From positions 1-44,628 of the forward strand of contig JASKKX010000004.1 of NCBI GenBank assembly GCA_030153935.1: a DNA stretch of 44,628 nucleotides, in the 5' to 3' direction. The DNA comes from Verrucomicrobiota bacterium. Lineage in GTDB: Bacteria; Verrucomicrobiota; Kiritimatiellia; Kiritimatiellales; Tichowtungiaceae. Positions 9,700 to 35,783 of this stretch are shown here, piece after piece. The notes under the pieces are model-generated. The model searched no databases. It had not been told where the DNA came from and saw nothing but the letters and a program-made list of their open reading frames with translations. Both the position numbers and the translations under genes were made by a program. How positions within the stretch are numbered: the first letter of the stretch is position 1; the number at the start of each line of letters is the position of its first letter.

Positions 9700-10466
9700 A
9701 AATTACTTTTTTAGGCACAGGCACCTCGCACGGCGTTCCGATGATCGGATGCTCCTGCGCGGTCTGCCGGTCGGACAATCCGAAAAATTACCGCCGGCGG
9801 TGCAGTATTTATATTCAGGCGGACGAAACGCATCTGCTGTTCGATACGCCGCCTGATCTGCGCGATCAGGTACTGACTTTCGGGGTAAAGCAGGTGGACG
9901 CGGTGTTCATTACCCATCCGCATGCCGACCATATTTTCGGTTTTGATGATATCCGCCGTTTCAGCGATCTGCAAAAGAAGCATCTTCCCGTGTACGGTTC
10001 GCCGGACACTATCGCTTCAATGCGCTCTAAATTTGATTATGTTGATCGTCGGAGCCACTCGTTCGGCGGCGTGCCGCGCGTGGTTTTCACGGAGATGACC
10101 GCGCCGGTGGAAATCGGCGGAATGCGGATCACGCCCGTCCCGGTAATGCACGGCACAGACCGGATTTACGGCTTTCAGGTTGAATCAGACAGAGGACGAC
10201 TGGCCTATATTCCCGACTGTTCGGGCATTCCGCCGGAAAGCTTCCAAGCTCTGGAAGACCTGGATGTGATGATTCTCGACGGCTTGCGCCCCGGTAAACA
10301 TGCAACGCATTTTTCGATTGAGGAATGCGTTGCTCGCCTGCAGCGAATCGGTGCAAAAAAATCTTTTATGACCCACCTGACACACGACTCAGATCATGAT
10401 GCTCTGCAGGCATCGCTGCCGCCCGGCATCGAGGTGCCGTGGGACGGGCTGGCTCTTTCGGTCTAA
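9696..10466 (+). CDS. PhnP-like metallo-beta-lactamase-fold hydrolase
   Basis: A 256-residue MBL-fold hydrolase. MKITFLGTGTSHGVPMIGC-x-C and the following Cys pattern match the PhnP/cyclic phosphodiesterase subgroup. The metal motif HPHADH (His74, His76, Asp78, His79) is intact; VMHGTDRIYGFQV, AYIPDCSGIP and a late His (MTHLTHDSDH) supply further ligands. It overlaps nspC by 4 bp and its stop codon overlaps that of the opposing antiporter gene. A perfect TTCCA-N5-TGGAA palindrome (10241-10257) lies in the coding region and encodes SFQALED. A phosphodiesterase role is likely; the substrate is unknown. Confidence 0.85.
   Translation: MKITFLGTGTSHGVPMIGCSCAVCRSDNPKNYRRRCSIYIQADETHLLFDTPPDLRDQVLTFGVKQVDAVFITHPHADHIFGFDDIRRFSDLQKKHLPVYGSPDTIASMRSKFDYVDRRSHSFGGVPRVVFTEMTAPVEIGGMRITPVPVMHGTDRIYGFQVESDRGRLAYIPDCSGIPPESFQALEDLDVMILDGLRPGKHATHFSIEECVARLQRIGAKKSFMTHLTHDSDHDALQASLPPGIEVPWDGLALSV
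10241..10257. repeat. Palindromic repeat, copy in MBL hydrolase gene
   Basis: CTTCCA-AGCTC-TGGAAG, a perfect 6-bp-arm palindrome with a 5-bp centre, inside the PhnP-like gene. Read in frame it gives F-Q-A-L-E. It is a member of the TTCCA-RNNNY-TGGAA family described in the findings. Confidence 0.7.
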
Positions 10467-11440
10467 GCGGTTTTGTAGAGTGTAAAGAGCCCGAGCAGAT
10501 AAAAGGTGATCATCAGCAGTGATTCCCACGCAATGAACCGGGCTCGTTTTTTCTGCCGCATGGCGACGAGCGCGGTGCAGGTCATGGCGATCGAACAGCC
10601 GCCGATAAAGAGCAGGCCGGGACTGATGTTGAGCGGAATATGGAAGGCCTCTTTCCCGTAAACGAGATCGGCAACTGCAGTGATCAGCACATTGAACATG
10701 TTGGATCCGAAGATATTGCCGAGCATCAGATCGAAGGCTCCGATCCGGACTGCGGTGATGCTGACGGTCAGTTCCGGAAGCGAGGTGACCAGCGCAAGAA
10801 ACAGGCTGCCGACAAAACTCTGTTCAAGACCGGTGCGTTCGGCAATCCGGTCGCCGAGCCGGGCAAGAATTATTCCGGCGACAACAATCACCACGGCAGC
10901 GGCGGTGAACTGGATTACGGTTTTTGTCAGTTCTGAACGGTCTGCTGAGACCGAAGTCTCCGTTTCCGCGCTCTGCCCGTCCCGGTGGGTGCGGAAAAAA
11001 ATGAAGAGATAGATTGCGATGACCAGCAGGCTGCCGATATTGAAATGCATACCGAAGAACGCCACGCTGTCGGGCAGGGTGAGCGTCATCAGGATGGCGA
11101 TGATCATGACCAGATAGTGAAGAAGCGGAGTGATGCGATGGCGGGTCTGCCGCAGAATGCCGCCCCTTCGGAACAGCAGGTCGCACAGCGCGATAATCAT
11201 CAGGTTGAACAGATCGCTGCCCAGATTATTGCCGACCGCCAGATCCGGGCGTCCGACCTCGATCACCGCTCCGAGCGAGGTGGAGAGTTCGGGCAGGCTG
11301 GTGATAACGCTGACCAGCAGCAGACCGACGGTCGAACTGGAGATATTCAGCAGATTCGCCAGCTTCTCGGCCAGAACCGAGAGTCGGGAGCCTGCCAGAA
11401 TGATGACGGCCGCGACGGTGATAAATTCAATCCAGATCAT
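10463..11440 (-). CDS. Calcium/sodium antiporter family protein (CaCA)
   Basis: Inner-membrane cation exchanger of the CaCA (YrbG/NCX) family, 325 residues. It has two inverted halves of hydrophobic helices joined by a short polar loop (about residues 150-170). The alpha-repeat motifs are VSVITSLPELSTSLGAV near residue 45 and LALVTSLPELTVSITAV near 215. Each is followed by a GN-x-x-GS-[DN]-x-FN motif (GNNLGSDLFN, GNIFGSNMFN). The conserved acidic residues of the exchange site are present. The ATG at 11440 is chosen because AGAGGAG lies 7 bases upstream; a start 15 codons earlier is unsupported. The stop overlaps the convergent hydrolase stop. The exact ion is not determinable. Confidence 0.92.
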   Translation of the reverse strand: MIWIEFITVAAVIILAGSRLSVLAEKLANLLNISSSTVGLLLVSVITSLPELSTSLGAVIEVGRPDLAVGNNLGSDLFNLMIIALCDLLFRRGGILRQTRHRITPLLHYLVMIIAILMTLTLPDSVAFFGMHFNIGSLLVIAIYLFIFFRTHRDGQSAETETSVSADRSELTKTVIQFTAAAVVIVVAGIILARLGDRIAERTGLEQSFVGSLFLALVTSLPELTVSITAVRIGAFDLMLGNIFGSNMFNVLITAVADLVYGKEAFHIPLNISPGLLFIGGCSIAMTCTALVAMRQKKRARFIAWESLLMITFYLLGLFTLYKTA

Positions 11441-11667
11441 GTAACACTCCTCTGCGGAACAGGGTTGCATCTTCCTATAATACACACCGTGCTGCTGTCT
11501 TCCTATCTTACCTGAAGCGGCCCGTCTCAGGGCAAGAACTTTTCATTGCCTGCCGGCTTAAAAAATAAGCGGTAATGCCAATTGACACCGCAGATAACCC
11601 CATGCTAAAAGCGCCCCTCATTTTTCGTTTGAGAATGTGACCCGATAGAACGGAAGGGCGTTAAGAC

Positions 11668-12201
11668 ATGGATGAAAAAAAGAGTTTAAAAAAGACCGTG
11701 GTGACCCAACCCACCGAAGAAAAGCCGATTGTAAAAACAGCAGACTCAGTGAAAAAAGTGGAAAAAATTCCCATGGAAACGCCCCCGCCGGCTCCCGTCA
11801 TACCGGGCGTGAAAAAACTGACGGACAAGCAGATTTCTGAATTTAAGGAACGGCTGTTGGCTTTGCGTGATCGTGTTTCAGGCGAGTACAGTACGCTTTC
11901 CCGTGACAATGTCGCGGCTAATCAGCGCGATGCGTCACTCTCTGACCAGGGAACGGATACTTTTGACCGCGAAATGGAACTCAACATGATGGGTTCCGAG
12001 CAGGAAGTGCTTTTTGAAATCGATGCGGCGCTGCGCCGCATCGAAAAAGGCACTTTCGGTATTTGCGAACTCACCGGCCAACCGATCGACATCGAACGTC
12101 TTAACGCGCTGCCCTATGTGCGATACACCGTACGTGCTCAGTCCGAACTCGAAAAAGGCCGTGCCCGCTACCGCCCTTTTGGCGGCACGATGCGCGGCTG
12201 A
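11668..12201 (+). CDS. DksA/TraR-family protein with degenerate zinc finger
   Basis: A 177-residue DksA/TraR-like protein. A Lys/Pro-rich N-terminal tail (about 1-50) is followed by a coiled-coil (LTDKQISEFKERLLALRDRV and onward), the DQGTDTFDRE segment, and a C-terminal domain FGICELTGQPIDIERLNALPY. In classical members four cysteines bind zinc; here only the first (GIC) remains and the second pair is replaced (YTVRAQ), so zinc binding is probably lost. Such proteins bind the RNA polymerase secondary channel and alter transcription of stress and ribosomal genes. It directly precedes lspA with an 18-bp gap, an arrangement common in several bacterial phyla. Confidence 0.85.
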   Translation: MDEKKSLKKTVVTQPTEEKPIVKTADSVKKVEKIPMETPPPAPVIPGVKKLTDKQISEFKERLLALRDRVSGEYSTLSRDNVAANQRDASLSDQGTDTFDREMELNMMGSEQEVLFEIDAALRRIEKGTFGICELTGQPIDIERLNALPYVRYTVRAQSELEKGRARYRPFGGTMRG

Positions 12202-12219
12202 CTGAAAAAGGAGACCTCC

Positions 12220-12702
12220 ATGCTGGTGCTCATTCTCGGGTTGGTCGTTGTTGTGCTGGATCAGCTGACCAAGCTATGGGTGCGGGGGTCTTTTATTTAC
12301 GGCGGGGAGCCGCACGCTGTCGTTCCCGGTCTTTTGAATCTGGTTTATGTCCGCAACGAAGGCGCAGCGTGGGGGATGCTCGGCGGGCAGCAGCTTCTGC
12401 TGGTCCTCCTTTCGTTCGCAGTACTGATCTTTCTTGCGGTTTATCGCCGCAAGGTGCTTAGTCCGACGTTCGACCATCGTATTGCGCTCGGTTTGATGGT
12501 CGGCGGCATCTGCGGCAACCTTATCGACCGCATTCGTCTCGGCTGGGTCACCGACTTCCTCGATTTTCATATCGGGGCGTACCACTGGCCCTCCTTTAAC
12601 GTTGCCGACTCAGCGATCTGTACGGCGGTCGCGATTTACCTGCTCTCTTCGCTCTGGCACAGCCGCCACCCGCTGAAACACTCCGTCGATGAACCGGAAT
12701 AA
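12220..12702 (+). CDS. lspA: Lipoprotein signal peptidase (signal peptidase II)
   Basis: A 160-residue inner-membrane aspartyl protease that removes signal peptides from prolipoproteins. It has four hydrophobic helices and the family motifs DQLTKLWV, NLVYVRNEGAAWG and GGICGNLIDRIRLGWVTDFLDF. The second catalytic block is WPSFNVADSAI; the two catalytic aspartates lie in WVTD and NVAD. AAGGAG stands 7-12 bases before the ATG. Its 3' end overlaps miaA by 14 bp. This indicates that the cell makes lipoproteins. Confidence 0.96.
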   Translation: MLVLILGLVVVVLDQLTKLWVRGSFIYGGEPHAVVPGLLNLVYVRNEGAAWGMLGGQQLLLVLLSFAVLIFLAVYRRKVLSPTFDHRIALGLMVGGICGNLIDRIRLGWVTDFLDFHIGAYHWPSFNVADSAICTAVAIYLLSSLWHSRHPLKHSVDEPE

Positions 12703-13609
12703 CCCCAGCGCATTTGTGCTGGTCGGCCCGACGGCGTCGGGTAAAAGCGCAGTGGCGCAGCTCTTTGCCGAACAGACCGGTGCGCCGGTGGTTTCCGCCG
12801 ACTCCATGAACATTTATCGGAACATGAATATCGGCACGGCCAAACCGTCGCCTGCGGAACGCCGATCGGTTCAGTATTTCGGTATCGATCTTGTCGATCC
12901 CGTCGAATCTTTCAGCGTAGGAGACTGGCTCAAGGCTGTCCGTCCGGCTTTCTATGGCCCGCAACCTCCCGTCGTTGCAGGGGGGACAGGGCTTTATGTG
13001 AGATGTCTTCTGCAGGGACTGGACGATTTGCCTGCCGCTGATGAAGCTCTCCGCGAGCGCACAGAAAAAATGACACGTGCTGAGTTGCAGGCCGAGGTGA
13101 AAAGAACCGCGCCGGAAGCCTACGAAGCACTTGCCGATAAAGAAAATCCGCGGCGTCTCGTTCGGCTTTTGGAAAAAGTTTCCAACATCGGAAAAAAAAG
13201 AGCAAAAGGTTCCAATGCCTGGAAAAAAGAGCAGCCGGCAGTGATCGGCCTGCACGTTGAGCGTGAGGTGCTTCACCAGCGGATTGCGGAGCGGGTCGGG
13301 AACATGTATAAGGGCGGACTGCTCGATGAGGCGCGCGGCCTTTTGGCGCTTGAGCTTTCTTCAACGGCGCAGCACGCCATCGGCTATGCCGAGGCGTTCG
13401 CTGTTCTGCGCGGCGAGATGAGCGAGAGTGCAGCTCAGGAAAAAACCATGATCCGAACCCGTCAGCTCGCAAAACGCCAGATGACCTGGTTCCGGCATCA
13501 GCTGAATGTCGAATGGATCGATACGGCTGATTTCCCGAATCCTGAAAAACTTCTATTGGAAATTTCCAGGATCTGGAAAAAACAGGGAGCGGTCCCCGTT
13601 ACGATTTGA
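12689..13609 (+). CDS. miaA: tRNA dimethylallyltransferase
   Basis: Transfers the dimethylallyl group to the N6 of A37 in tRNAs reading UNN codons. It has 306 residues, the normal length. The P-loop is VLVGPTASGKSAVAQLFAE; VVSADSMNIYRNMNIGTAKPS and VAGGTGLYVRCLLQGL are diagnostic, and ENPRRLVRLLEK leads into the region usually reading TGKP. In that region the protein instead has SNIGKKRAKGSNAWKKE, encoded by two copies of the palindromic repeat. A third copy encodes ISRIWKKQ at the C-terminus. The gene overlaps lspA by 14 bp. The function is secure; the repeat-encoded segments are unusual. Confidence 0.95.
   Translation: MNRNNPSAFVLVGPTASGKSAVAQLFAEQTGAPVVSADSMNIYRNMNIGTAKPSPAERRSVQYFGIDLVDPVESFSVGDWLKAVRPAFYGPQPPVVAGGTGLYVRCLLQGLDDLPAADEALRERTEKMTRAELQAEVKRTAPEAYEALADKENPRRLVRLLEKVSNIGKKRAKGSNAWKKEQPAVIGLHVEREVLHQRIAERVGNMYKGGLLDEARGLLALELSSTAQHAIGYAEAFAVLRGEMSESAAQEKTMIRTRQLAKRQMTWFRHQLNVEWIDTADFPNPEKLLLEISRIWKKQGAVPVTI
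13179..13194. repeat. Palindromic repeat, first copy in miaA
   Basis: TTTCC-AACATC-GGAAA, one mismatch from the TTCCA-N5-TGGAA consensus. It overlaps a reversed-arm palindrome TTGGAAA-AAG-TTTCCAA just upstream. Translated in frame it gives S-N-I-G-K-K. Confidence 0.6.
13210..13224. repeat. Palindromic repeat, second copy in miaA
   Basis: TTCCA-ATGCC-TGGAA, a perfect match to the consensus and followed by an A-run. Translated in frame it gives S-N-A-W-K-K. It begins only 31 bp after the start of the previous copy. Confidence 0.7.
13563..13579. repeat. Palindromic repeat, third copy in miaA
   Basis: TTTCCA-GGATC-TGGAAA, perfect 6-bp arms followed by an A-run. Immediately upstream the reversed form TGGAAATTTCCA shares its left arm. 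Translated in frame it gives I-S-R-I-W-K-K close to the MiaA C-terminus. Confidence 0.7.
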
Positions 13610-13632
13610 TTCTCAGCCGGGCGTCGGCCGGT

Positions 13633-14004
13633 TTAAATAATCAGGCCGCTTTCTTTTTTGAGATCCGCGGGGGTAACAATCTTCCCTGCCTGTTCGCGCT
13701 GGTACTGCTGTGCTTCTTCAATCATGCGGGTCATGGCATCTTCCATCGCCTGCGGGAATTTTTCGACGGCTTCTTCCAGTGTTTTTGCTTCGATTGTTCC
13801 CTGGATCGGGAGCGGTCCCTGCGGGCTCATGATCTGAGTATGTCCGGTGAAAACCGGATCGCGGGAAGGATCTTCGGTGCCATCGGCTTTTACCGGGACA
13901 AGTTTACGAATGCTGCCGGTTTTTAAATCGGTGTAGGCTTCTTCGCGGCAAAGGCCGGCGGCATCCATTTTAACATCACTGAGTTTTTCGGGCTGATTGC
14001 TCAT
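13633..14004 (-). CDS. Conserved hypothetical cytoplasmic protein
   Basis: A 123-residue soluble protein without signal peptide or membrane segment. It resembles a small conserved family of unknown function found in several Gram-negative phyla. Recognisable blocks are the start MSNQPEKLSDVKMDAAGLCR, then SIRKLVPVKADGTEDPSR, TQIMSPQGPLPI and FPQAMEDAMTRMIEEAQ, ending in a helical charged tail. The start at 14004 is chosen from the AAGGAA ribosome site and family resemblance; a 30-codon upstream extension is open but has no such support. It is convergent with miaA (23-bp gap) and divergent from the YihY gene. No function can be assigned. Confidence 0.8.
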   Translation of the reverse strand: MSNQPEKLSDVKMDAAGLCREEAYTDLKTGSIRKLVPVKADGTEDPSRDPVFTGHTQIMSPQGPLPIQGTIEAKTLEEAVEKFPQAMEDAMTRMIEEAQQYQREQAGKIVTPADLKKESGLII

Positions 14005-14127
14005 AGGGTTTCCTTTCTGAAATGAGAGACAATTAAGCCACAGACGTAAACCGGGTGAAACCCTGTTTTGGGGTTTTCTTTCCAAAGAGAACATCCTATG
14101 CTTGATGAACTGAAAGGGAATTGCCTC

Positions 14128-15453
14128 ATGAACAATAGGTTATCCGGAATCCTGCAGCGGGCCCGGCGGTTTTTAAAACAGGATCTCCAGCGGTTTTTTA
14201 AGCATGATCTCTGGAATCTGGAGCCGTCTTCGCTTTCCAAAGCGCGACGAAGCGGGCTTGAATTCCTGCGCATTTGTGCGCTCGTTGTCAAAGGTTTCAG
14301 AGAAGATAATTGCCCGCTGCACGCTTCGGCGCTCACATTTACCGCCGTGATGGCAATTGTTCCTTTTCTTGTCATTCTTCTGGCGATTGCCAAAGGGTTT
14401 GGGTTTGAAATCGCCAGTGAGAAGGTGATGCTCTGGTCCGTTAACTACGGTTTGCCGGACGCGGCTCAGCAGATTATCGGCAATTTGCTTTCCACGGTTG
14501 AATCAGCCAGTGCAGGGGCGATCGGATCGATCGGTACGGCCTTATTTCTCTGGGTAGCCATCCGGATGCTCAGCAACATTGAAGAAACCTTTAATCTGGT
14601 CTGGGGAGTAAAAACTCCGCGGCCGTTGATCGACAAAATCCGCAACTACATTGTGATTATGGTAGCCGCTCCGGTTCTGATGATTATCGCTTCGGCCGGG
14701 CAGCCCATTGTCATCAATATGACAAACCGCCTGGTGTGGATGGGTCCGCTGCTCACACTCTCACTGCGCCTCGTTCCCATACTGATCATGGCCCTGGCCT
14801 TCAGCATCGTTTACATTTTTCTGCCGAATACCAAGGTGGAATTCACGGCGGCACTTACCGGCGCATTCTTCAGTGCGCTGCTGGCCATTCTGTTCCAGCT
14901 GGCCATCATAAAGCTCGGTGTGGGAGTCAGTAAATACAACAAGATTTACGGTGCACTGGCAGCCATTCCCATCTTTCTGTTCTGGGTTCAAATGAATTGG
15001 ATGATTCTGCTGATGGGAGCGGAAATCGCCTTTTCGGTCCAAAACACCGGCACCTACTCCCGGGAAAAGCTTGCCATTGATCCAAGCACCTGTTCGCGAC
15101 TCTGTCTCGCGTTTGCCTTGATGAAAAAGATCGCCGAAGCATTCAAGTTCGACCGCGGGCCATTCAATACGCTGGCATACGGAACAGAAAACCGCATTCC
15201 GGTCCGGCTCGTCAACGACGTGATTAATATTCTTGCTAAAAACAGACTTGTAGCAGAAGCCGCCGAATATCCCGGAAGCTATATTATACTGCGTGATCCG
15301 GCCGATATTTCCGCACGCAGCATCGCAGATGCCATTCTTAACGAGGGTGCCGCGCCCGATGAACTGGGGCTGGCCGACAACTTTCCACTGTTTGTAAAAA
15401 TCACGGACGAAAGTTTTAAAGCGCTGGAAAAACAGACTCTTCAGAACTTTTAG
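14128..15453 (+). CDS. YihY/BrkB family inner membrane protein
   Basis: About 441 residues. A basic, soluble N-terminus (about 1-75) is followed by roughly six transmembrane helices (about 75-320) and a soluble C-terminal domain with winged-helix-like character (about 330-441). CPLHASALTFTAVMAIVPFLVIL, LWVAIRMLSNIEETFNLVWG and IYGALAAIPIFLFWVQMNW are the YihY/UPF0761 (once misnamed ribonuclease BN) signatures. Possible starts are 14068, 14098 and 14128; 14128 is preferred because AAAGGGA lies about 9 bases upstream. The function is unknown; a membrane role is secure. The C-terminal SFKALEKQ is encoded by a sequence two bases off the palindrome consensus. Confidence 0.88.
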   Translation: MNNRLSGILQRARRFLKQDLQRFFKHDLWNLEPSSLSKARRSGLEFLRICALVVKGFREDNCPLHASALTFTAVMAIVPFLVILLAIAKGFGFEIASEKVMLWSVNYGLPDAAQQIIGNLLSTVESASAGAIGSIGTALFLWVAIRMLSNIEETFNLVWGVKTPRPLIDKIRNYIVIMVAAPVLMIIASAGQPIVINMTNRLVWMGPLLTLSLRLVPILIMALAFSIVYIFLPNTKVEFTAALTGAFFSALLAILFQLAIIKLGVGVSKYNKIYGALAAIPIFLFWVQMNWMILLMGAEIAFSVQNTGTYSREKLAIDPSTCSRLCLAFALMKKIAEAFKFDRGPFNTLAYGTENRIPVRLVNDVINILAKNRLVAEAAEYPGSYIILRDPADISARSIADAILNEGAAPDELGLADNFPLFVKITDESFKALEKQTLQNF

Positions 15454-15473
15454 AGAGGGTTCCGTTCACGTTT

Positions 15474-16373: not shown

Positions 16374-16473
16374 ATCTCCTCATCTCCTTTCGGTGTCTGA
16401 ACTAATATTTCGTTTATCAGAGAGAAATTAGCAAGCTTTTGGCCTAGAATTCATATTATTTTCGTATAGTTAA

Positions 16474-16514
16474 ACAGAAACAGGCAAATGTTTAACAGGA
16501 ATGTGTATTGAGAA
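16474..16514 (+). promoter_or_regulatory. Putative operator, 41-bp element, copy 1
   Basis: This 41-bp sequence, between the AraC gene and the first aldo/keto reductase, recurs at 17788-17828 with 35 of 41 bases identical and every difference a transition. It contains two ACAGG half-sites 15 bp apart and the invariant core AATGTGTATTGA. It lies about 65 bp before the reductase start. Its position suggests a regulator site and/or core promoter; that is inferred. Confidence 0.6.
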
Positions 16515-21021: not shown

Positions 21022-21036
21022 CTGCCGTAAAAACGG

Positions 21037-21084
21037 TCCAATGGTTGGAAACTTTCATCCCGATTTTTTCCAACCATTGAAAAC
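21037..21084. repeat. Paired palindromic repeats forming a 13-bp stem
   Basis: Two near-consensus copies lie after the second aldo/keto reductase: TCCAA-TGG-TTGGA (21037-21049) and TTTTCCAA-CCA-TTGAAAA (21066-21083). Together they form a perfect 13-bp inverted repeat, CAATGGTTGGAAA (21039-21051) with TTTCCAACCATTG (21067-21079) and a 15-base loop. It could end the reductase transcript, but there is no U-tract after the stem. This is an intergenic member of the family also found inside genes here. Confidence 0.7.
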
Positions 21085-21121: not shown

Positions 21122-21901
21122 ATGAAACGAATTGCACTGCTTTTGCTGCTGCTGTTCTCCGTTGTGCGGTCGACAGCGGATGATTCTCTGTTTTTTGTGC
21201 AGATAACGGATACGCATTTTGGGCAGGGGGATCATTTGGAACGGGCCCGAACGGTCGTGAAGGCAATCAATGCGCTTCCGGTGGACATCGCGTTTGTCGC
21301 TGTGACGGGCGACATCATGGATGACTGTATCACAGACTCCCATACGGTGGATGCGGCACGGACTGTTCTGAACAGATTGAAGATGCCGGTTCACTTTGTT
21401 CCCGGAAATCATGACCTTCTGACCGCGGCTCCGGAAAAAACGGCGGCAGCATTCACGAATCGGTTTGGTCCGCTGATTTCGGATGCGGAGTATGGCGGGG
21501 TTGAGTTTGTATTTGTCTGCACAGAGCCGCTGGCGGGCGGAGCCCGGCCGAAGGGATATGACCCGCTGAAGGAACTCGAAAATCGATTCAGGTCCTATGC
21601 CCCGAATCAGCCGATTGTGGTTTTCCATCATACGCCGTCCGTCGGCAATTTTTATCAGAATATTTTTCATCCCGGATGGGGCCGGTCTGAAGCAGGCCGT
21701 CAATGGACCGAACGGCTCAACCGCTATCCGGTTAAAGCGGTCATTGCGGGGCATTTCCATCGTGACGAATTCCACTGGCTGGGTGACATCCCGCTGTTTG
21801 TATGCCCTCCGCTTTCCGGACGGTTTGGGCGACAGGCGGCATTTCGAGTCTATAAATATCATGACGGGAAGGTCGAGTATCGCACACAGTATCCTGAATA
21901 A
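21122..21901 (+). CDS. Secreted calcineurin-like metallophosphoesterase
   Basis: A 259-residue protein with a signal peptide (about 1-20, MKRIALLLLLLFSVV...TADD) and then a calcineurin-type phosphoesterase domain. Metal ligands are in QITDTHFG, VTGDIMDD, FVPGNHD, VVFHHTPS and IAGHFHRDEFHW, the full set for a dinuclear centre. It is likely periplasmic or exported and hydrolyses a phosphoester; the substrate is not evident. It precedes a PstS-like protein by about 95 bp, which suggests, without proving, a role in phosphate scavenging. Confidence 0.88.
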   Translation: MKRIALLLLLLFSVVRSTADDSLFFVQITDTHFGQGDHLERARTVVKAINALPVDIAFVAVTGDIMDDCITDSHTVDAARTVLNRLKMPVHFVPGNHDLLTAAPEKTAAAFTNRFGPLISDAEYGGVEFVFVCTEPLAGGARPKGYDPLKELENRFRSYAPNQPIVVFHHTPSVGNFYQNIFHPGWGRSEAGRQWTERLNRYPVKAVIAGHFHRDEFHWLGDIPLFVCPPLSGRFGRQAAFRVYKYHDGKVEYRTQYPE

Positions 21902-28969: not shown

Positions 28970-29000
28970 AACTGAACCGCCTTTCACCGGCGGTTCAGTT
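28970..29000 (-). terminator. Rho-independent terminator of the BI-1-like gene
   Basis: Perfect 12-bp arms AACTGAACCGCC and GGCGGTTCAGTT around a 7-base loop. On the minus strand the stem is followed by a run of six T. The stem overlaps the last codons and stop of the minus-strand gene (stop at 28984-28986). It may also limit read-through from argG, although the plus-strand side has only three T. Confidence 0.75.
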
Positions 29001-29709
29001 TAGAGAGCAGGCGCAGAATTTCCATGTAAAGCCAGACGAGTGTGACAATCAGTCCGAAGGCGGCGTACCATTCCATGTATTTCGGTGCGCCCTGTTCCGC
29101 GCCCTGCTCGATAAAGTCAAAGTCGAGCACGAGATTGAGCGCCGCGATAACCACCACCACCGCGCTCAATCCGATGCCGATCGGTCCGCTGCCGTAGATC
29201 ATCGGAATGCCGATTCCGAAAAAGCCGAGAATCCACGACGCCATGTAAAAGAGCGCGACTCCGCCGGTCGCGGCGCAGACGCCGAGTTTAAAGTTTTCAG
29301 TGGGGCGGATCAGGTGCGACGTATAAGCGAGCAGCAGCGCGCCGAGTGTTCCGAACGTCAGCAGAACCGCCTGCATGACGATGCCGGGAAAGCGTGCCTC
29401 GAAAAGGCTGGAAATGCCTCCGAGCAGGAGACCTTCACAGACCGCATAAATCGGAGCTGTTACCGGGGCCGATTTTTTGTTGAAGATGGTGATCAAGGCA
29501 ACAATGAAACCGGCAATTCCGCCGATCATGATCCATCCGGTCCCGTTCTGCGGTGCCGCCGGATTCCAGGTAAGCAGCGTGGATGCAAAAAGAAGCGCCA
29601 GCAGCATGGCGGTTCGGCTGACCGTTCCCTGGATGGTCATTACCCCGCTGCCTGTGCTGGCCAGATCAAACGTTTTGGCATTCAGTGCCGGATTAGCTGT
29701 ACGCATCAT
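28984..29709 (-). CDS. Bax inhibitor-1/YccA family membrane protein
   Basis: A 241-residue inner-membrane protein with about seven hydrophobic helices after a 25-residue soluble N-terminus (MRTANPALNAKTFDL). The N-terminal ANPALN-x-K-x-F segment and the ending NLVLDFDFIEQGAEQGAPKYMEWYAAF match the BaxI_1 (YccA-like, DUF with acidic pore) group. The conserved Asp pair expected near the C-terminal helix is present (LDFDFIE). AAGGAG lies 9 bases before the start at 29709. These proteins are proposed cation (calcium) leak channels; the role in bacteria is unsettled. The last codons form the terminator stem. Confidence 0.9.
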   Translation of the reverse strand: MMRTANPALNAKTFDLASTGSGVMTIQGTVSRTAMLLALLFASTLLTWNPAAPQNGTGWIMIGGIAGFIVALITIFNKKSAPVTAPIYAVCEGLLLGGISSLFEARFPGIVMQAVLLTFGTLGALLLAYTSHLIRPTENFKLGVCAATGGVALFYMASWILGFFGIGIPMIYGSGPIGIGLSAVVVVIAALNLVLDFDFIEQGAEQGAPKYMEWYAAFGLIVTLVWLYMEILRLLSKLNRR

Positions 29710-29823
29710 AATTCAACTCTCCTTGTGCAATTTCCCGATAATTAAACGGATTCGACCCGTAAAATGCAAAACTGTTCACGGATCAAACTTGAGTCGGAAA
29801 AAACGATCCGCAACGCATGGTCC

Positions 29824-29842
29824 GTTTCCAAACCTTGGAAAC
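29824..29842. repeat. Palindromic repeat upstream of serC
   Basis: GTTTCCAA-ACC-TTGGAAAC, perfect 8-bp arms with a 3-bp centre, the longest palindrome of the family in this window. It is intergenic, 69 bp before the serC start. It could be an operator or a mobile repeat; the family's spread inside genes favours the latter. Confidence 0.75.
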
Positions 29843-29910
29843 ATTCGGTTTGCCCGGGCGGGGGATTCTATGTTAAATATACGCTCATTTTAATTGAAAG
29901 GAAATCTATC

Positions 29911-30993
29911 ATGGCGCGTGCATATAACTTCAGTGCAGGGCCGGCGATTCTGCCGGAAGAGGTTCTTAAACAGGCTCAGGCCGAACTGCTGGATTTCAAC
30001 GGAACCGGCATGTCCATTATGGAGATGAGTCATCGCGGCAAGGATTACTCCGCGGTGCATCAGGAAGCCAAGGACAACCTCAGGAAGCTCCTGAATATTC
30101 CGGATAACTACAGCATCCTCTTTATGACCGGCGGCGCGAGCACGCAGTTTTCGTTGATTCCGATGAATCTGGTCGGAGAAGGACAGACCGCTGACTATAT
30201 CAATGCCGGAGCATGGGGAACAAAAGCCCTCAAAGCGGCCAAAAAGCTCGGCGTGAAAGTTAATGTGTCGGCGGATGTCTCCAAAGAGATTCCGGCCCGT
30301 ATGCCGGCCCTTGAAAATCTTCAGTTCACTGAGGGCGCCGCCTACGTGCATATTACGTCCAACGAGACCATTTCCGGCGCACAGATGAAGGAATTTCCTG
30401 AAACCGCCGCCCCGCTGATTGCCGATATGTCTTCGGACATCCTGTCTCGTCCGCTCGACGTGTCGCAGTTCGGCATGATTTACGCCGGTGCACAGAAAAA
30501 TCTTGCTCCGGCAGGCGTGACCCTGGTGATCATTCGCAATGACCTGGCGGAAAAATCGCCGGAAACGCTGCCGGACCTTTTTCAGTACAGGCATATGATG
30601 GAAACCGATTCGCTTTCCAACACGGCACCGACCTTCCTGATTTACATGATCATGCTCGTCACCCGCTGGCTGCTGGCCAAGGGCGGACTCGAGGGGATGC
30701 AGAAAATCAATAAGGAAAAAGCGGACAAGCTCTATGCCGCCATAGACAAGTCGGATTTCTATAAAGGCACTGCCGTTCCGGAATATCGCTCCACGATGAA
30801 TGTGACCTTCCGCCTGCCGAGCGAAGAACTCGAAACACAGTTTATCAAAGAAGCTGCGGCGCAGGGGATGACCAGCCTCAAAGGGTATCGCTCTGTCGGC
30901 GGTATTCGCGCTTCCATCTACAATGCCTTTCCGACAGAAGGGGTGGATGTGCTGATCGGCTTCATGAAAGAGTTCGAGAAAAAGAACAGCTGA
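29911..30993 (+). CDS. serC: Phosphoserine aminotransferase
   Basis: PLP enzyme converting 3-phosphohydroxypyruvate and glutamate to phosphoserine, in serine biosynthesis; it can also serve pyridoxal phosphate synthesis. It has 360 residues. YNFSAGPAILPEEVL is the family start; ILFMTGGASTQF, SSDILSRP and MIYAGAQKNLAPAGVT with PLP Lys196 are diagnostic. The end RASIYNAFPTEGVD is also conserved. The start at 29911 follows AAAGGAAA. The upstream region carries a perfect 19-bp palindrome. No serA or serB is in the window. Confidence 0.97.
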   Translation: MARAYNFSAGPAILPEEVLKQAQAELLDFNGTGMSIMEMSHRGKDYSAVHQEAKDNLRKLLNIPDNYSILFMTGGASTQFSLIPMNLVGEGQTADYINAGAWGTKALKAAKKLGVKVNVSADVSKEIPARMPALENLQFTEGAAYVHITSNETISGAQMKEFPETAAPLIADMSSDILSRPLDVSQFGMIYAGAQKNLAPAGVTLVIIRNDLAEKSPETLPDLFQYRHMMETDSLSNTAPTFLIYMIMLVTRWLLAKGGLEGMQKINKEKADKLYAAIDKSDFYKGTAVPEYRSTMNVTFRLPSEELETQFIKEAAAQGMTSLKGYRSVGGIRASIYNAFPTEGVDVLIGFMKEFEKKNS

Positions 30994-31327
30994 TGATTTT
31001 CGCGGCGGTTACTCCTGCTGATGTGATGCGGCGGGGTAACCGTCCGGACTTTGCCGCTGTTCCTGACCGGTTTTCTGCCGTGCGCGGATTGCCTCAATGA
31101 CGATGGGCTCACACACTGTGCCGCGGCCAGAATCAATGCCTCTGTTGCGCAGCGGGCACGGACGAGGTGATCGGAGACTATACCGGAACGAATATAACCG
31201 GTTTAGGCCGCACAGCCGGCAGGGCTGGGTTAGGCCCGGTCCCACAGAGACGAACTGCCCGTCGCTCGGGTTAAACTGCGGATAATCTTTGGAGTAACGG
31301 AGGCCTTTTTGCCTCCGTTGTCACGGG
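30994..31327. other. Non-coding region after serC with two hairpins
   Basis: No gene is convincing here. Just after the serC stop a 10-bp stem (CGGTTACTCC 31006-31015 with GGGGTAACCG 31033-31042, one wobble) could stabilise or end the message. A second perfect 9-bp stem, AACGGAGGC/GCCTCCGTT at 31296-31319, has a CTTTTT loop but no U-tract after it. The stretch between is GC-rich and could hold an RNA gene, but I recognise none. A short minus-strand reading frame (about 31009-31245) has no family resemblance. Confidence 0.4.
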
Positions 31328-31521
31328 TGTCCGGTAAAAGTAAGTTTATGACCCAGGCCGATATGAGCCTGACAACCATGGCGCGACGGGTCAAAGGCGG
31401 GCGGATGATGCGTATGGACCGAATGGAACGGCTCTGTTTAAGTCCGGGCAAACCCGTTCACCCGCCCGATGGACAGGATGCCGCCCGGAGGGTATTTATC
31501 CTCTGAAACTTTTACCGGACA
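31328..31521. mobile_element. 194-bp element with 14-bp terminal inverted repeats (MITE-like or structured RNA)
   Basis: The ends are perfect inverted repeats: TGTCCGGTAAAAGT at 31328-31341 and ACTTTTACCGGACA at 31508-31521. The inside holds further hairpins, including CAGGC/GCCTG, GACCC/GGGTC, CGGGCGG/CCGCCCG and GGAGG/TCCTC. The outer ends TGT...ACA and small size fit a non-autonomous MITE or an internally deleted insertion sequence. A short open frame from 31348 (MTQADMSLTTMARR...) could be a transposase start. No target-site duplication is clear. Alternatively the ends close a structured RNA of about 200 bases, as a T-rich tract follows at 31529-31538. I cannot decide between these. Confidence 0.5.
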
Positions 31522-31786
31522 GTCGTGCTTTTTCTTTTAAAAAATCCGGCCTCCGGATCAGGCAAACAGCAGGATTCCCGTTCCCGTGTTTCATCGGCAA
31601 CCCTGTTAATGGCCGTCCACGTTCAATACAGCTTCTGCCGAATTCCCGAAAGCATAGTGAATCGGAACTTGCTCCATTCTCTCAGCTCCGGTAAATTCTT
31701 CTGTTTTACAAAACGCGTCACCAGCCCATTCTGTTGTCTGATTGTAACGGTGCCGCAGTAACCCTGAACCAGAGAAAGGAAGAACC
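31522..31786. other. Leader region of the NYN-like gene
   Basis: 265 bp without a convincing gene. It begins with a T-rich tract, then a perfect small hairpin ATCCGG-CCT-CCGGAT near 31544-31558. It must contain the promoter of the following gene or its leader; no strong -35/-10 pair stands out. The ribosome site AAAGGAAG precedes the ATG at 31787. Confidence 0.35.
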
Positions 31787-32359
31787 ATGGGGCTCTTCGG
31801 AACAGCAAAACCGGTACTGGCAGTCGATTTCGACGCCATACTTCAAACCAAAGGTGTGCGCGGACGCGCCGCGCCGCGCCAGCAACTCCAGATTCTGCGC
31901 TCGCTTTCCCGCTTTGTGCAGCGCGAGAAAATCAAAGTCATCGCCGTAATGACCGGCCAGCCACTTGATAAAGCACCGCACAATAAAGTATTTGAGGGGG
32001 TGCGTGTACGCTATGCCCAGTCTGCGGAAATGATGGCGGGAGAACTCCTCAAAGCACTCAAGCAGGCCGGCTCGTCAGGAATTCTGGTGACTGACAATAT
32101 TGAACTCGAAAAGAAAGTACGTCAAGGCGGCGGCGCAACATTGCGTATTTCCACGTTCCGCAAGCTGCTTGATGACAGCAACGAATCGTTGTCCGGCAAT
32201 AACAACGGAGGGAATGGCGGAGGCCGTTCAAACGGACGGCGTCCACGCCGCCGGAAGCCCGCAGCAAAGACGCAAAACTCCTCTGTACCGGCGGAAAACG
32301 CCAGGAACGAGAACAGTAACGCCGACACCATCAGCCAAATGATAGATCTGGTCGACTAG
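31787..32359 (+). CDS. NYN/PIN-like domain protein with Gly/Arg-rich tail
   Basis: A 190-residue protein not firmly recognised. Residues 1-130 look like a small Rossmann-type NYN (YacP-like) domain: LAVDFDAIL near the start, a helix rich in R and Q, then ILVTDNIELEKKVRQGGGATLRIS, which resembles the 'VVTSD...A...GA' strand and loop of YacP nucleases. Residues about 141-165 are low complexity (GNNNGGNGGGRSNGRRPRRR), typical of RNA-binding tails. A role in RNA metabolism is therefore plausible but inferred. It stands alone and is convergent with hpt, with a long hairpin between them. Confidence 0.6.
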   Translation: MGLFGTAKPVLAVDFDAILQTKGVRGRAAPRQQLQILRSLSRFVQREKIKVIAVMTGQPLDKAPHNKVFEGVRVRYAQSAEMMAGELLKALKQAGSSGILVTDNIELEKKVRQGGGATLRISTFRKLLDDSNESLSGNNNGGNGGGRSNGRRPRRRKPAAKTQNSSVPAENARNENSNADTISQMIDLVD

Positions 32360-32380
32360 GACCGCTCTGACGAGAATACG

Positions 32381-32420
32381 GAAACGGCTTTTTCTGTACT
32401 TTTCAGAGAAAGCCGGTTTC
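32381..32420. terminator. Bidirectional hairpin between convergent genes
   Basis: Arms GAAAC-GGCTTTTTCTG and CAGAGAAAGCC-G-GTTTC pair over 16 bp with one wobble and one bulged G. It sits between the stops of the NYN-like gene and hpt, and T/A-rich segments lie in the stem. It probably ends both transcripts. Confidence 0.6.
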
Positions 32421-32436
32421 GTTTCTGCAGGCATCT

Positions 32437-32982
32437 CTATTCCTCCAGAAATGTGACAGTGGCGATATAAGGCAGCTCGCGATAGCGGTTGTCATAATCA
32501 AGGCCATACCCGACTACAAAGACATCGCCGACAGGGAATCCCGCATAGTCGGCGTCCATGTCTACCGCCCGGTTCGTTTTTTTGTCCAGCAGCACACAGG
32601 TGCGCACCGACCGCGCCCCGCGTTTCAGAAAGAGTTCTTTGGCAAAAGAGAGAGTCCGCCCGCTATCGAGAATGTCATCCACAATCACCACATCCGCCCC
32701 GGTCAGATCTTCGTTGGTATCATGCGTGATTCTGACTGTACCGCTCGATTCAGTTCCTGCGCCGTAACTTGAGAGTATAATAAAATCGACACGCGGATGC
32801 AGATTGTGCTGGGAAAATCCGCGCACAAGATCTGCCAGAAAAATAAAACTTCCGCGAAGAATGCCCAGCATCACCAGATTTTCCGCCTCACAGTCCTGTG
32901 CGATCTCATCAATTAACGTATGAACACGCTGCTGAATCTGCTCGCTGGTTAACAATACGTTGTGAATATGATGCGATTTCAT
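32437..32982 (-). CDS. hpt: Hypoxanthine phosphoribosyltransferase
   Basis: Purine salvage enzyme joining hypoxanthine or guanine to PRPP. It has 181 residues, a standard length. VDFIILSSYGAG and VVIVDDILDSGRTL (the PRPP-binding motif) are diagnostic, and the base-specificity region DVFVVGYGLDYDNRYRELP is intact. The start at 32982 has GGGAG about 9 bases upstream; an extension of 18 codons is possible but unsupported. It is followed upstream by 273 bp of non-coding DNA shared with the divergent gltX, in which no clear site was seen. Confidence 0.95.
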   Translation of the reverse strand: MKSHHIHNVLLTSEQIQQRVHTLIDEIAQDCEAENLVMLGILRGSFIFLADLVRGFSQHNLHPRVDFIILSSYGAGTESSGTVRITHDTNEDLTGADVVIVDDILDSGRTLSFAKELFLKRGARSVRTCVLLDKKTNRAVDMDADYAGFPVGDVFVVGYGLDYDNRYRELPYIATVTFLEE

Positions 32983-33255
32983 ACAGGATTCTCCCTTATC
33001 ATGCGATATGGACTTTACGGTTAATTGCTCCCGCATGGAATGTCAAATTTACAGATAGATTTTCGCGATGGCACCAATGACTGCATGTATAAAGAGCGAT
33101 CATTGTTCACGCAGGCAGTTTTTCAGGGGCCCGGGATTGCAGTTTGCCGACAGAAGATGAGCTGTCCGCCGGAATCTTTATTCTGCGGCAACGAAAAATT
33201 AATCGGCTGCAGGATTTTTATCGCCTCTGTTCAGAGATTCGGTAAAACGTAGAGC

Positions 33256-34557
33256 ATGAATACACGTACACGTTTTGCTCCCAGTCCGACCGGCCATGTC
33301 CATATCGGTAACATGCGGGCGGCGATCTTCAATTGGCTTTACGCCCGCCATACCGGGGGAAAATTCCTGCTGCGTGTTGAAGACACCGATATCGAACGTT
33401 CCACTCCTGAAGCAATTAAAACCCTCCTGGAGGCGCTGGACTGGCTCGGTCTCGACATCGATGAGGAACCCCTTTATCAGACGACCCGCATGGAGGCCCA
33501 CCTCGCCGCTGCCGAACAGCTCCTTGTTGCGGGACACGCTTACAGAGAAGATAAAGGCGGGCTGGGGCAGGGCGAATGCATTATTTTCAAAATGCCCGGT
33601 ATCGATATGGAATTCCATGACGAAATTAAAGGCACCCTCCGAAAGCCTGCCGCCGATATGGCCGACTTTGTCATCGTCCGTTCTAACGGAACGCCTGTTT
33701 TTCACATTGCCAATGTTCTCGATGACATCGAACAGGGTGTCACGCATGTGATTCGCGGCGACGACCACGTCGAAAACACGTTTCGCCACATTGCCCTCTA
33801 TCAGGCGCTCGGGGCGCCTGTCCCGAAATTTGCCCACCTGCCAATGATCATCAATGCGCAGGGCAAACCCTATTCCAAACGCGACGGCGACGCGTTCATC
33901 GGCGATTTTCAGAGCAAAGGGTTTTTAGGAGACACGCTGTTCAACTATCTCGCGCTCCTCGGCTGGTCGCCCGGCGATGACCGCGAAATCATGACCCGCG
34001 AAGAGATGATTGAAGCCTTCGATCTTTCCGCCGTCCGCTCATCGCCCGCGCAGATGGATTTGCGTAAACTTCTGTGGATGAACGGCGAATATATACGTGC
34101 GATGAAGCCGGAAGATTTTGCGGCTCTGGCCCGCAAAGAACTGTCCGCCGCCGGCATCGACCCCGGCCTCGACGCCGAGGCCGTTTTTGCACTCATGCAG
34201 CCGCGCACCAAACTGACTGCGGATATTGTCCCGGCGGTCACCTTCTTTTTTACCGAGGACTACGAATACGATGAAAAAGCTGTACAGAAAAAGCTTCTTA
34301 AAGACGGCGCTTTCCAGACCCTGGAAAAAATCATCGAAATCTTCCAGGGATTGGAAAACTTCGCGACCGAAACCATAGACAAAGCTCTGCATGAGTTCGT
34401 CGAGCAGAGCGGTCTGGGGTTCGGCGTCGTTATGCCGCCGATCCGTATCGCCGTCTCCGGTCAGCCGTCCGGCCCGGATCTCGCACCCACTCTCGCTATT
34501 CTGGGCAAGGATACCGTTCTGGCCCGCATTCGCAGAACCATTGAACAGTTCGGATGA
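33256..34557 (+). CDS. gltX: Glutamyl-tRNA synthetase
   Basis: Charges tRNA-Glu (or tRNA-Gln). It has 433 residues, at the short end of the family (about 465-485). TRFAPSPTGHVHIGNMRAAI holds the HIGH-type motif and KPYSKRDGDAFI near residue 206 the KMSKS-equivalent. VEDTDIERST and VIRGDDHVENT are also typical. The C-terminal anticodon-binding region (about 350-372) is encoded by two palindromic repeats, giving AFQTLEK and IFQGLENF. No ribosome site is strong before ATG 33256, but the N-terminus fits the family. A second gltX paralogue elsewhere cannot be judged. Confidence 0.95.
   Translation: MNTRTRFAPSPTGHVHIGNMRAAIFNWLYARHTGGKFLLRVEDTDIERSTPEAIKTLLEALDWLGLDIDEEPLYQTTRMEAHLAAAEQLLVAGHAYREDKGGLGQGECIIFKMPGIDMEFHDEIKGTLRKPAADMADFVIVRSNGTPVFHIANVLDDIEQGVTHVIRGDDHVENTFRHIALYQALGAPVPKFAHLPMIINAQGKPYSKRDGDAFIGDFQSKGFLGDTLFNYLALLGWSPGDDREIMTREEMIEAFDLSAVRSSPAQMDLRKLLWMNGEYIRAMKPEDFAALARKELSAAGIDPGLDAEAVFALMQPRTKLTADIVPAVTFFFTEDYEYDEKAVQKKLLKDGAFQTLEKIIEIFQGLENFATETIDKALHEFVEQSGLGFGVVMPPIRIAVSGQPSGPDLAPTLAILGKDTVLARIRRTIEQFG
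34311..34327. repeat. Palindromic repeat, first copy in gltX
   Basis: TTTCCAG-ACC-CTGGAAA, perfect 7-bp arms, inside the gltX anticodon-binding region. It reads F-Q-T-L-E-K in frame. Confidence 0.75.
34342..34356. repeat. Palindromic repeat, second copy in gltX
   Basis: TTCCA-GGGAT-TGGAA followed by AA, beginning 31 bp after the start of the previous copy. It reads F-Q-G-L-E-N in frame. The 31-bp offset equals that between the first two copies in miaA. Confidence 0.7.
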
Positions 34558-34602
34558 TTGAATTTCATCCTGTGGATAAAAGAAAAATCAGGGGGAGGAA
34601 AA

Positions 34603-35094
34603 TTACATTTCCCTGAACTGAGAAGCCCGTAATGGGCTTCCTTCTGCACCCCAGATCCGAACCGGCCGGCCGGAAGGAAGGTTCAGTTCGCAGAGCGTTT
34701 CGTCAGAGTGCTCTTTAAAGTCCTCCGCTTCAGCGGGATTTTTCTTAATGTGAACCGGACGCGGCTTCTTCAACGCCCCGGAGAGTTTTCCCAGCCAGTA
34801 CTTTATGCAGGAAACAGAGCGGGATATATCCAGTTCGGTCTCCAGCCACTTGCGGGCCTGTCCCGCCGTACACCAGGTTCCTTCTTTCAGGTTCTGTTCA
34901 ATAGCCCGCTGTACATCCGGATGGCGGCTCGGACTCGGTCGACCTCCGCCTTGACCCTGCCGGCAGAGCAATGCATCCGGGGCCTTGGTCGCAAAACCGA
35001 TCGATCCGCTGCCGGAGGTGGAAGAGGCTCTGCCGATTAAAAACCGCATCCCGTCGGTGTCATTTATTTTTGAGGCAACGCGACCCATGCTCAT
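34603..35094 (-). pseudogene. IS630-type transposase remnant
   Basis: A 163-codon frame that resembles only the N-terminal DNA-binding half of an IS630-family transposase. LLCRQGQGGGRPSPSRHPDV, GTWCTAGQARKWLETELDIS and VSCIKYWLGKLSGALKKPRPV match the winged-helix pattern. LPSGRPVRIWGAEGSPLRAS is the expected lead into the catalytic domain, which usually reads like 'vriWvaDEsRyGL'. The frame then stops at once, so the DDE catalytic domain is absent. The ATG overlaps the lipB stop (ATGA), suggesting past insertion at the lipB 3' end, or a domesticated DNA-binding fragment. No inverted repeats were recognised. Confidence 0.65.
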
Positions 35095-35783
35095 TTCAGA
35101 ATTGCAGCCAGCGGAGAGTTCTCCAAGGATTGGAAAATCTCGAGATCACGGGCGCAGACTTCAGCAAAATTGGTTAAAAGCCGGTCGCGTACGGCATCCT
35201 GCACAGGACAGGCATCGCCCAGTACCGTCTGCATGGAGGCAACCGGCTGGCCGACGAGACCGCACGGCACAATGGTTTGGAAACCGGACAGGTCCAGACA
35301 GACGTTGAAACTCATGCCGTGGAAGGAGACCCAGCGTTTCAGACGAAATCCGATGGCGGCCACTTTCCCCTGCTCCGTCCAGGCTCCGTTTTTGCCTTCA
35401 CGGCGAAACCCGGCAATGCCGAAATCGGCCAGAGTACGCAAAGCCACCTCTTCGAGATTCCAGAGATAGCCATGCGAATCGGCACCCCTGCCGCCCAGAT
35501 AAATGATCGGATACAGCACCCATTGTCCCGGCGCATGATACGTAACATCACCGCCGCGTTCGACGTGGAAGAGTTCGATCCCGCGCGCAGCGTATTCCTC
35601 ACGAGACAGCAGCAGGTAATTATCGCGGCCCCTGTTGCCGAGAGTCACTGTGGGCGGATGCTGGAGAATCAGTACCGTATCAGGGATTTCCTCTGCCTGT
35701 CGTGCCGCAAGCAGCTGATGCTGAAGCTCAAGCCCGCGCTGATATGGGACCGGCTCGTTAAACTGTATGGTCCACGTATTCAT
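35091..35783 (-). CDS. lipB: Octanoyltransferase
   Basis: Transfers octanoyl from ACP to lipoyl domains, the first step of lipoate synthesis. It has 230 residues. LILQHPPTVTLGNRGRDNYL, HVERGGDVTYHAPGQWVLYPI and GKVAAIGFRLKRWVSFHG (catalytic Lys140) are conserved, and Cys174 lies in IVPCGL. The C-terminus, EIFQSLENSPLAAILK, is encoded partly by a palindromic repeat and echoes the repeat-encoded peptide of gltX. lipA is not nearby. The gene ends at the IS630 remnant. Confidence 0.95.
   Translation of the reverse strand: MNTWTIQFNEPVPYQRGLELQHQLLAARQAEEIPDTVLILQHPPTVTLGNRGRDNYLLLSREEYAARGIELFHVERGGDVTYHAPGQWVLYPIIYLGGRGADSHGYLWNLEEVALRTLADFGIAGFRREGKNGAWTEQGKVAAIGFRLKRWVSFHGMSFNVCLDLSGFQTIVPCGLVGQPVASMQTVLGDACPVQDAVRDRLLTNFAEVCARDLEIFQSLENSPLAAILK
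35119..35138. repeat. Palindromic repeat in lipB 3' end
   Basis: TCCAA-GGA-TTGGA core (35122-35134) in the extended form TTCTCCAA-GGA-TTGGAAAA, one base off perfect 8-bp arms. On the coding (minus) strand it reads I-F-Q-S-L-E-N. Confidence 0.65.

Follow-up and report, generated by a model that had tools for sequence, protein, structure and literature searches.

Does a short split palindrome that recurs both within and between the genes of a bacterium mark a mobile repeat, an operator, an RNA structure or the binding site of a protein with a genome-wide task? This question is raised by a stretch of 44,628 nucleotides (contig JASKKX010000004.1 of assembly GCA_030153935.1, hereafter 'the window') from a member of the Tichowtungiaceae, a family of the class Kiritimatiellia in the Verrucomicrobiota. 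The sequence TTCCA-N5-TGGAA occurs there six times without mismatch, beginning at positions 10242, 13210, 13564, 29826, 34312 and 34342, exactly where a reading of the sequence alone, undertaken earlier and called the sequence-only reading below, had placed it. That reading held the palindrome to be far above chance, and dinucleotide shuffles of the window bear this out, as they yield a mean of 0.05 perfect copies and a maximum of 1. It proposed either a proliferating repeat or a genome-wide recognition site for a protein or an RNA. Our analyses favour a protein. We predict, at a probability of about 0.7, that the palindrome is the binding site of a single dimeric, cooperatively binding protein that resembles nucleoid-associated proteins.

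Enrichment and helical phasing of a split palindrome

The genome to which the window belongs (2,035,175 bases in 100 contigs, 93% complete) carries 243 perfect copies of TTCCA-N5-TGGAA, compared with a single copy of the reversed control pattern AAGGT-N5-ACCTT. A sample of 793,016 bp (39% of this genome, window included; the 'own-genome sample') contains 102 perfect and 181 one-mismatch copies. In the same sample, each of 29 other arms with identical composition occurs no more than 9 times (mean 0.83), and TTCCA arms separated by spacers of 2-4 or 6-9 bases are found at most 4 times each. When 5-bp palindromes with spacers of 0-12 were ranked in a sample of 185,741 bases, TTCCA-N5 led the list with 36 copies and the next three entries were its own shifted forms. 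Thus, neither of the outcomes that the sequence-only reading had named as contradicting it occurred: the genome count is far above random, and same-composition palindromes are not enriched.

Most perfect copies in the own-genome sample (89 of 102) lie in called genes, and their density is 0.129 per kb in genes and 0.128 per kb outside. Of the codon-preserving controls that the sequence-only reading had called for, synonymous shuffles retain a mean of only 13.4 coding copies (maximum 20 in 30 shuffles) and codon-order shuffles 1.3. These copies are found in all three reading frames. Read in frame 0, the palindrome encodes F-Q-x-L-E, a peptide that occurs 42 times versus 2.3 times in shuffled proteins, whereas eight related peptides reach 0.8 to 3.3 times their expectation. 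This approximately 18-fold rise suggests that selection at the DNA level is strong enough to shape protein sequence.

The anatomy of an individual site is more detailed than its two arms. The central five bases mostly follow R-N-S-N-Y (R, purine; S, G or C; Y, pyrimidine), with R...Y in 80 of the 102 perfect copies of the own-genome sample and with the dyad occupied by G or C in 93. The sequence-only reading had noticed a purine and a pyrimidine at the ends of every centre, which is correct for all six window copies but is a preference rather than a rule in the larger sample. Among the 117 array loci listed (see below), the flanks favour T before and A after the palindrome, which is therefore often longer than 15 bp, and conservation is restricted to the palindrome and these T/A edges. 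In own-genome copies with a single mismatch, the altered base is at arm position 1, 2, 3, 4 or 5 (counted from the outside) in 25, 28, 46, 20 and 62 cases, respectively. Changes are commonest at the inner A, followed by the middle C, and are less frequent at the outer T nucleotides.

A new finding of this study is that copies keep helical phase with one another. For a pooled test, we used copies with at most one mismatch from the own-genome sample, from samples of two related genomes (G009 and G014; G and L numbers denote genomes and loci) and from stretches around lrp in the genus. None of these was selected by spacing, and both the gltX loci, in which one conserved 30-bp pair recurs, and the G048 set described below were kept apart. 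Pair distances concentrate at the helical pitch, with R values of 0.78 at 16-70 bp (n = 58), 0.59 at 70-150 bp (n = 27) and 0.68 at 150-260 bp (n = 17), and the signal then fades to 0.36 at 260-400 bp (n = 48) and to a non-significant 0.19 beyond 400 bp (n = 45). Over 70-260 bp, a period of 10.5 bp fits best (R 0.63, n = 44), and a period of 3 gives 0.12. In a second test, the 102 perfect own-genome sites served as centres and neighbours were required to match at least 8 of the 10 arm bases. Neighbours then number 41 versus 10.8 expected at 16-70 bp (R 0.72) and 23 versus 15.9 at 70-150 bp (R 0.59).

Phasing is equally evident within genes. Own-genome pairs in which both copies are genic give R = 0.82 (n = 53), and their in-phase distances include 22, 31, 53, 63, 74, 84, 95, 126, 147, 168 and 179 bp. 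After synonymous-codon shuffling (20 runs), averages of 88.9 of the 230 sites and 5.3 of the 50 pairs remain, and nR2, originally 35.0, is 5.6 or less. Because shuffling of synonymous codons abolishes the phase, it must be set at the level of DNA and not by the encoded proteins. For none of the 29 same-composition control arms does nR2 exceed 1.6.

Two of the window copies, at 34312..34326 and, 30 bp further on, at 34342..34356, illustrate how such sites are preserved. Both lie in a glutamyl-tRNA-synthetase-like gene (gltX; 33256-34557, plus strand), where they read F-Q-T-L-E and F-Q-G-L-E, respectively. We searched 14 genomes of the genus and compared 12 loci, own genome included, after setting aside fragments in G006 and G011. 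Both arms of the first site are unchanged in all 12 loci. The second site is perfect in 7, differs by a single base in 3 and has been lost from 2, and its 30-bp position is the same in all 12.

Arrays and lineage-specific dialects

In the samples from the own genus and a neighbouring family, sites are scattered along the chromosome, largely irrespective of genes. G009 (12 of 14 sites genic) and G014 (19 of 24) resemble the own genome in this respect. A different arrangement is seen in an 80-kb sample of G048, where 27 of 28 sites are intergenic although 92.5% of the sample is called coding, where steps between sites measure 31 and 32 bp with offsets of 62-64 bp, and where every site obeys both the R...Y and the G/C-dyad rules. 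Spacing played no part in the selection of the own-genome, G009, G014 and G048 samples. In several other families, too, sites form arrays that are mostly intergenic and advance in 31/32-bp steps, and some of these arrays are capped by 22-bp steps. The sample of G053 consists partly of N, and its coding and palindrome figures were not used.

At least 117 array loci in named genomes were picked by a 31/32-bp pair pattern, and their peak at 31/32 bp is therefore not independent evidence. The steps outside this pattern, among the 117 loci listed, are 21/22 bp (18 cases), 30 and 33 bp (6), 41/42 bp (2), 51/53 bp (2), 61-66 bp (5), 94, 125 and 134 bp. The majority, though not all, lie close to whole helical turns. 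Arrays of three sites were found in 62 of 240 genomes of the class, and the reversed control gave none. Several of 30 fetched three-site loci are capped at both ends, with the step series 22-31-30-22 and 22-30-31-31-31-22 (both among L268-L278) and 22-32-31-31-31-22, and the 22-bp steps fall outside the pattern used in the search.

Copy numbers vary widely. Fifty-eight relatives carry between 3 and 2,297 copies each, and controls number 0 to 9. In samples of the motif-poor genomes G015 and G016, the few copies are all genic and 3 of 4 are in the F-Q-x-L-E frame, so their low counts may partly represent codon background. In a tally of 194 genomes of the phylum, at least 61 copies are present in 24 of 64 members of the class, and none of the 130 genomes outside it exceeds 30. 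Among the matches listed, array-bearing genomes are labelled Kiritimatiellae, Kiritimatiellia, Kiritimatiellales, Pontiellaceae, Lentisphaerae, Verrucomicrobia, Verrucomicrobiota or Spartobacteria, with one Firmicutes and some entries named only 'uncultured bacterium'. These names point to Kiritimatiellia as the class concerned. A genome of another class (G108, 2.4 Mb) holds 55 copies of AAGGT-N5-ACCTT and none of the motif, and perhaps carries an independent palindrome family.

The arms and spacing are constant among lineages, whereas the preferred centre is lineage-specific, as in dialects of one code. A pair pattern with R...Y centres matches in 80 of the 240 genomes (control 0), but certain genomes with many three-site matches almost completely lack it: the numbers of three-site matches and R...Y pairs are 61 and 0 in G115, 77 and 0 in G305, 35 and 0 in G096, and 59 and 1 in G232, whereas two congeners of G232 (G237 and G245) have 81 and 78 R...Y pairs. 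Most centres are Y...R at L270-L279. Fourteen of the 117 loci listed carry two or more sites each with exclusively non-R...Y centres (62 sites), and the remaining 6 of the 68 non-R...Y sites are singles elsewhere; in the own-genome sample, 22 of 102 break the rule. Dependence of the centre on lineage suggests a reader protein that changes along with it. In G046, which has only 4 standard copies, there are 152 copies of TCCAA-N3-TTGGA (control 0), and an 80-kb sample contains two pairs of them at a distance of 32 bp; here the outer base has drifted while the 32-bp pairing was retained. In the otherwise R...Y family f2, G026 shows 7 three-site matches and no R...Y pair, which could reflect either foreign contigs in the bin or another dialect.

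Arrays are also present on viral contigs. Examples are L153:3034-3164 (steps of 31, 22 and 63 bp), L154:2786-2946 (31, 31, 22, 31 and 31 bp) and L161:650-767 (31, 31 and 41 bp). The related phage contigs L153 and L154 have kept most arms, and much of the linker DNA has changed. Proteins common to the array-bearing viral contigs resembled, by eye, phage structural or replication genes. Phages that probably infect these bacteria may therefore exploit or imitate the code of their hosts.

A predicted nucleoid-associated protein and its rivals

We infer that one sequence-specific protein binds each site as a symmetric dimer, because the sequence is palindromic and its 5-bp half-sites lie one helical turn apart. 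Since phase is locked over several turns, contacts between dimers are to be expected, and dimers separated by 2, 3, 5, 6 or more turns would act jointly on the same face of the DNA by bridging, wrapping or filament formation. Such a nucleoid-associated protein would be expected to organize the chromosome and to tune many promoters. A general role of this kind is suggested by the mixture of genes downstream of sites and by the lack of a fixed distance to a TATAAT-like box, in a test with few hits. Both the number of sites and their phasing would fit those of nucleoid-associated proteins, and the proposal of a genome-wide protein recognition site is supported by the 10.5-bp phasing, the grammar of the arrays and the better preservation of arms than of linkers.

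Several observations weigh against this reading. Copy number differs more than 100-fold among relatives, with the motif-poor genomes G015 and G016 belonging to the same family as the motif-rich G014 and G018, and such swings are odd for an essential organizer. Certain distances within genes, namely 44, 48 and 100 bp, do not fit the phase. In the second phasing test, no excess of neighbours is seen at 150-260 bp (22 versus 21.6) and the phase is weak (R 0.35, p 0.07), so that long-range phase depends on the better sites. Moreover, the Rayleigh p-values count pairs within one cluster as independent and are hence optimistic. Linkers of neighbouring sites are more alike (0.50) than those of different loci (0.30), and 10 of 57 neighbouring pairs reach at least 0.8, which indicates that some arrays arose by duplication, although most linkers have diverged. 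Finally, no cognate protein was found among the families searched, as the distribution of the motif is not followed by PF04014, PF00216, PF01037 or PF02381.

The details for these families are as follows. AbrB-like PF04014 has no match at E ≤ 0.001 in the motif-rich genomes G000, G009, G010, G020, G023 and G057, which include the own genome and two single-contig assemblies (G009 and G023). HU/IHF (PF00216) is present in 57 of 58 genomes, motif-rich and motif-poor alike. MraZ (PF02381) occurs in 52 of 58, including the motif-poor G015, G016 and G021, neither its presence nor its DNA-binding sequence follows the motif, and a perfect motif lies within 160 bp upstream of mraZ in 1 of 21 genes read. 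Lrp (PF01037) is found in 52 of 58, mostly as a single copy of approximately 159 amino acids (L177, which is own-genome C32, and L178-L228), again with G015 and G016 included. The N-termini of the Lrp-like proteins are near-identical in the motif-rich G014 and the motif-poor G015 and G016, and only the ligand-binding domain of the own copy is recognized, with no Pfam match to a helix-turn-helix (HTH) domain. No common regulator gene was found downstream of arrays, where many unrelated genes are located instead, and when the first 75 residues of each of 206 small proteins from the own-genome sample were read by eye, only ordinary-looking regulators were seen.

Known DNA-binding systems offer several parallels. 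The gammaproteobacterial protein MatP is a bridging-capable dimer that organizes a region of the chromosome through matS, an odd-length R...Y palindrome, but matS is present in a few dozen copies within one macrodomain, whereas the motif reaches 2,297 copies, forms phased arrays and belongs to another class of bacteria. Lrp/AsnC sites are 15-bp palindromes of the form 5-N5-5 that lie about three turns apart and are wrapped around an octamer. The site length, layout and 31-32-bp spacing of the motif all agree with this, yet motif-poor genomes of the class keep an almost identical Lrp-like protein, and Pfam gives no HTH match for the copy in the own genome. ComK, a regulator of competence in Bacillus, recognizes AAAA-N5-TTTT boxes at whole-turn spacing, a comparable use of palindromic boxes with a 5-bp spacer, at far fewer sites. 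The likeness to matS, Lrp and ComK would concern the mode of working and not membership. AbrB can bind the inverted form TNCCA-N4-TGGNA, which resembles the motif in having two inverted TGGNA half-sites spaced by about one helical turn, and AbrB sites are likewise numerous in genomes. Bipartite TGGNA sites of AbrB are described in PMC11135676. The difference lies in the motif-rich genomes without PF04014. No account of the motif itself was found in the open-licence literature, as judged from listings alone.

The closest system in copy number is the cyanobacterial highly iterated palindrome HIP1, copies of which also occur within genes. By analogy, TTCCA-N5-TGGAA could be made and maintained by a DNA methyltransferase or repair system that recognizes the core CCA-N5-TGG, which is a known restriction site (PflMI). 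The two elements share a short palindromic form, high numbers far above chance in coding as well as intergenic DNA, a patchy distribution among relatives and replacement by other versions in certain lineages (PMC4390886). The HIP1 palindrome is continuous, 8 bp long and tied to methyltransferases, with one-base deviations biased to its outermost bases (PMC4390886), whereas the arms here are split by five bases and their deviations peak at inner bases. In addition, the surplus of the core (318 versus 155 for the reversed form) is about what full sites and those with outer mismatches contribute, and a methylase predicts neither 10.5-bp phasing nor arrays. We therefore regard an origin of this type as very unlikely.

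A regulon of an ordinary but very broad transcription factor, with activator or repressor sites at promoters and coding copies as by-products, is unlikely but deserves more credit. Sites with at most one mismatch are about 2.5-fold denser in the 100 bp upstream of own-genome genes than in gene middles (0.87 versus 0.35 per kb), the G048 sites are almost all intergenic, and 9 of 14 members of the genus, but 0 of 34 other genomes read there, have such a site in the 200 bp before lrp, often near -38. Against this reading, perfect own-genome sites are as dense within genes as outside, in-gene pairs are phased, the genes downstream are unrelated and sites keep no fixed distance to the promoter-like box, with the few hits noted above. 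The remark in the sequence-only reading that the copies do not fit a simple operator is borne out by the many kinds of genes downstream. An even smaller chance than for the HIP1-like origin is given to a mobile palindrome of the repetitive extragenic palindromic (REP) or bacterial interspersed mosaic element (BIME) type, spread by a REP-associated tyrosine transposase (RAYT). Dispersed copies and arrays, the 10 neighbouring linker pairs that are at least 80% alike and Y1_Tnp matches in 51 of 58 genomes would suit such an element. Conservation, on the other hand, ends at the palindrome and its T/A edges, and the location is extragenic in the G048 sample but not in the own genome. No Y1_Tnp (PF01797) match was found in G057 (88% complete) or G046 (98% complete), both drafts, and yet the former has 54 three-site matches, the latter its 152 variant copies, and both sets are phased. 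With linkers that mostly differ between copies, the proliferating repeat of the sequence-only reading thus loses its footing. As a separate observation, Y1_Tnp-like matches (profile positions of about 36-121) recur in many genomes of the class within very long open frames of roughly 600-1,200 amino acids, for example at G003:C74:31899-32132, G010:C34:3522-3773 and G037:C315:4880-5119.

Least credible of all is action in RNA, in which a transcript hairpin would serve as a terminator, stability element or protein target. The palindrome could form a short hairpin, and arrays often lie directly upstream of start codons. Spacing nevertheless matches the pitch of double-stranded DNA, copies occupy all reading frames and lie in divergent as well as convergent intergenic gaps, and Rfam gave no match in the window, so the RNA half of the recognition-site proposal is not upheld. 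Compensatory changes could not be seen at the first gltX site, whose arms are invariant in the 12 loci.

If the predicted nucleoid-associated protein does read these sites, it would represent a nucleoid protein of bacteria whose code is strict, readable and genome-wide. Questions about bacterial chromatin would become testable, as site positions would predict complexes, dialects would provide paired changes in site and reader, and relatives poor in the motif would serve as natural knock-outs. More speculatively, and with somewhat less than even odds, large parts of the class might carry a sequence-encoded chromatin lattice, in which a putative dimer reads the palindrome in helical register over one to a few hundred base pairs, coding DNA included. 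Codons and even amino acids (F-Q-x-L-E) would then be selected by packing, and the code would have drifted into dialects and be carried by phage contigs.

Remaining copies in the window and at other loci

As the sequence-only reading had stated, window copies lie both within and between genes (5 of the 6 perfect copies are genic). Gene calls were made with our own hexamer script, and start positions are rough. The perfect copy at 10242..10256 (TTCCA-AGCTC-TGGAA) is in a gene for a metallo-beta-lactamase-fold protein (9696-10466, plus strand), where it reads F-Q-A-L-E in frame 0. Two others, at 13210..13224 and 13564..13578, are located in a miaA-like isopentenyl-pyrophosphate (IPP) transferase gene (12689-13609, plus strand), both in frame 2. 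The sixth, at 29826..29840, separates a Bax-inhibitor-like gene (28984-29709, minus strand) from a divergent class-V aminotransferase gene (29911-30993, plus strand).

Three of the four one-mismatch copies that had been proposed were recovered. Those at 21036..21050 and 21068..21082 form a pair 32 bp apart, and these sites end 71 and 39 bp, respectively, before the called start of a plus-strand gene at 21122, and the third (CTCCAAGGATTGGAA, 35121..35135) lies within a minus-strand open reading frame (35091-35783). The fourth, at 13180..13194 and thus 30 bp ahead of the 13210 site, is a degenerate copy with two mismatches (TTCCAACATCGGAAA). A scan for sites with at most one mismatch added a copy that the earlier list lacks (TTCCACTGTTTGTAA, 15383..15397).

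Eight of the genus loci near lrp (L177, L179, L180, L182, L186, L188, L189 and L190) have a copy of the palindrome, perfect or with one mismatch, at about -37 to -41 relative to the lrp start codon. It adjoins a TATAA-like box in several members of the genus, and a second copy is present 22 bp upstream in two. Arrays or pairs are also found upstream of pheS-like genes, named by eye, in three genomes (L323, which is the own genome, L106 and L114).

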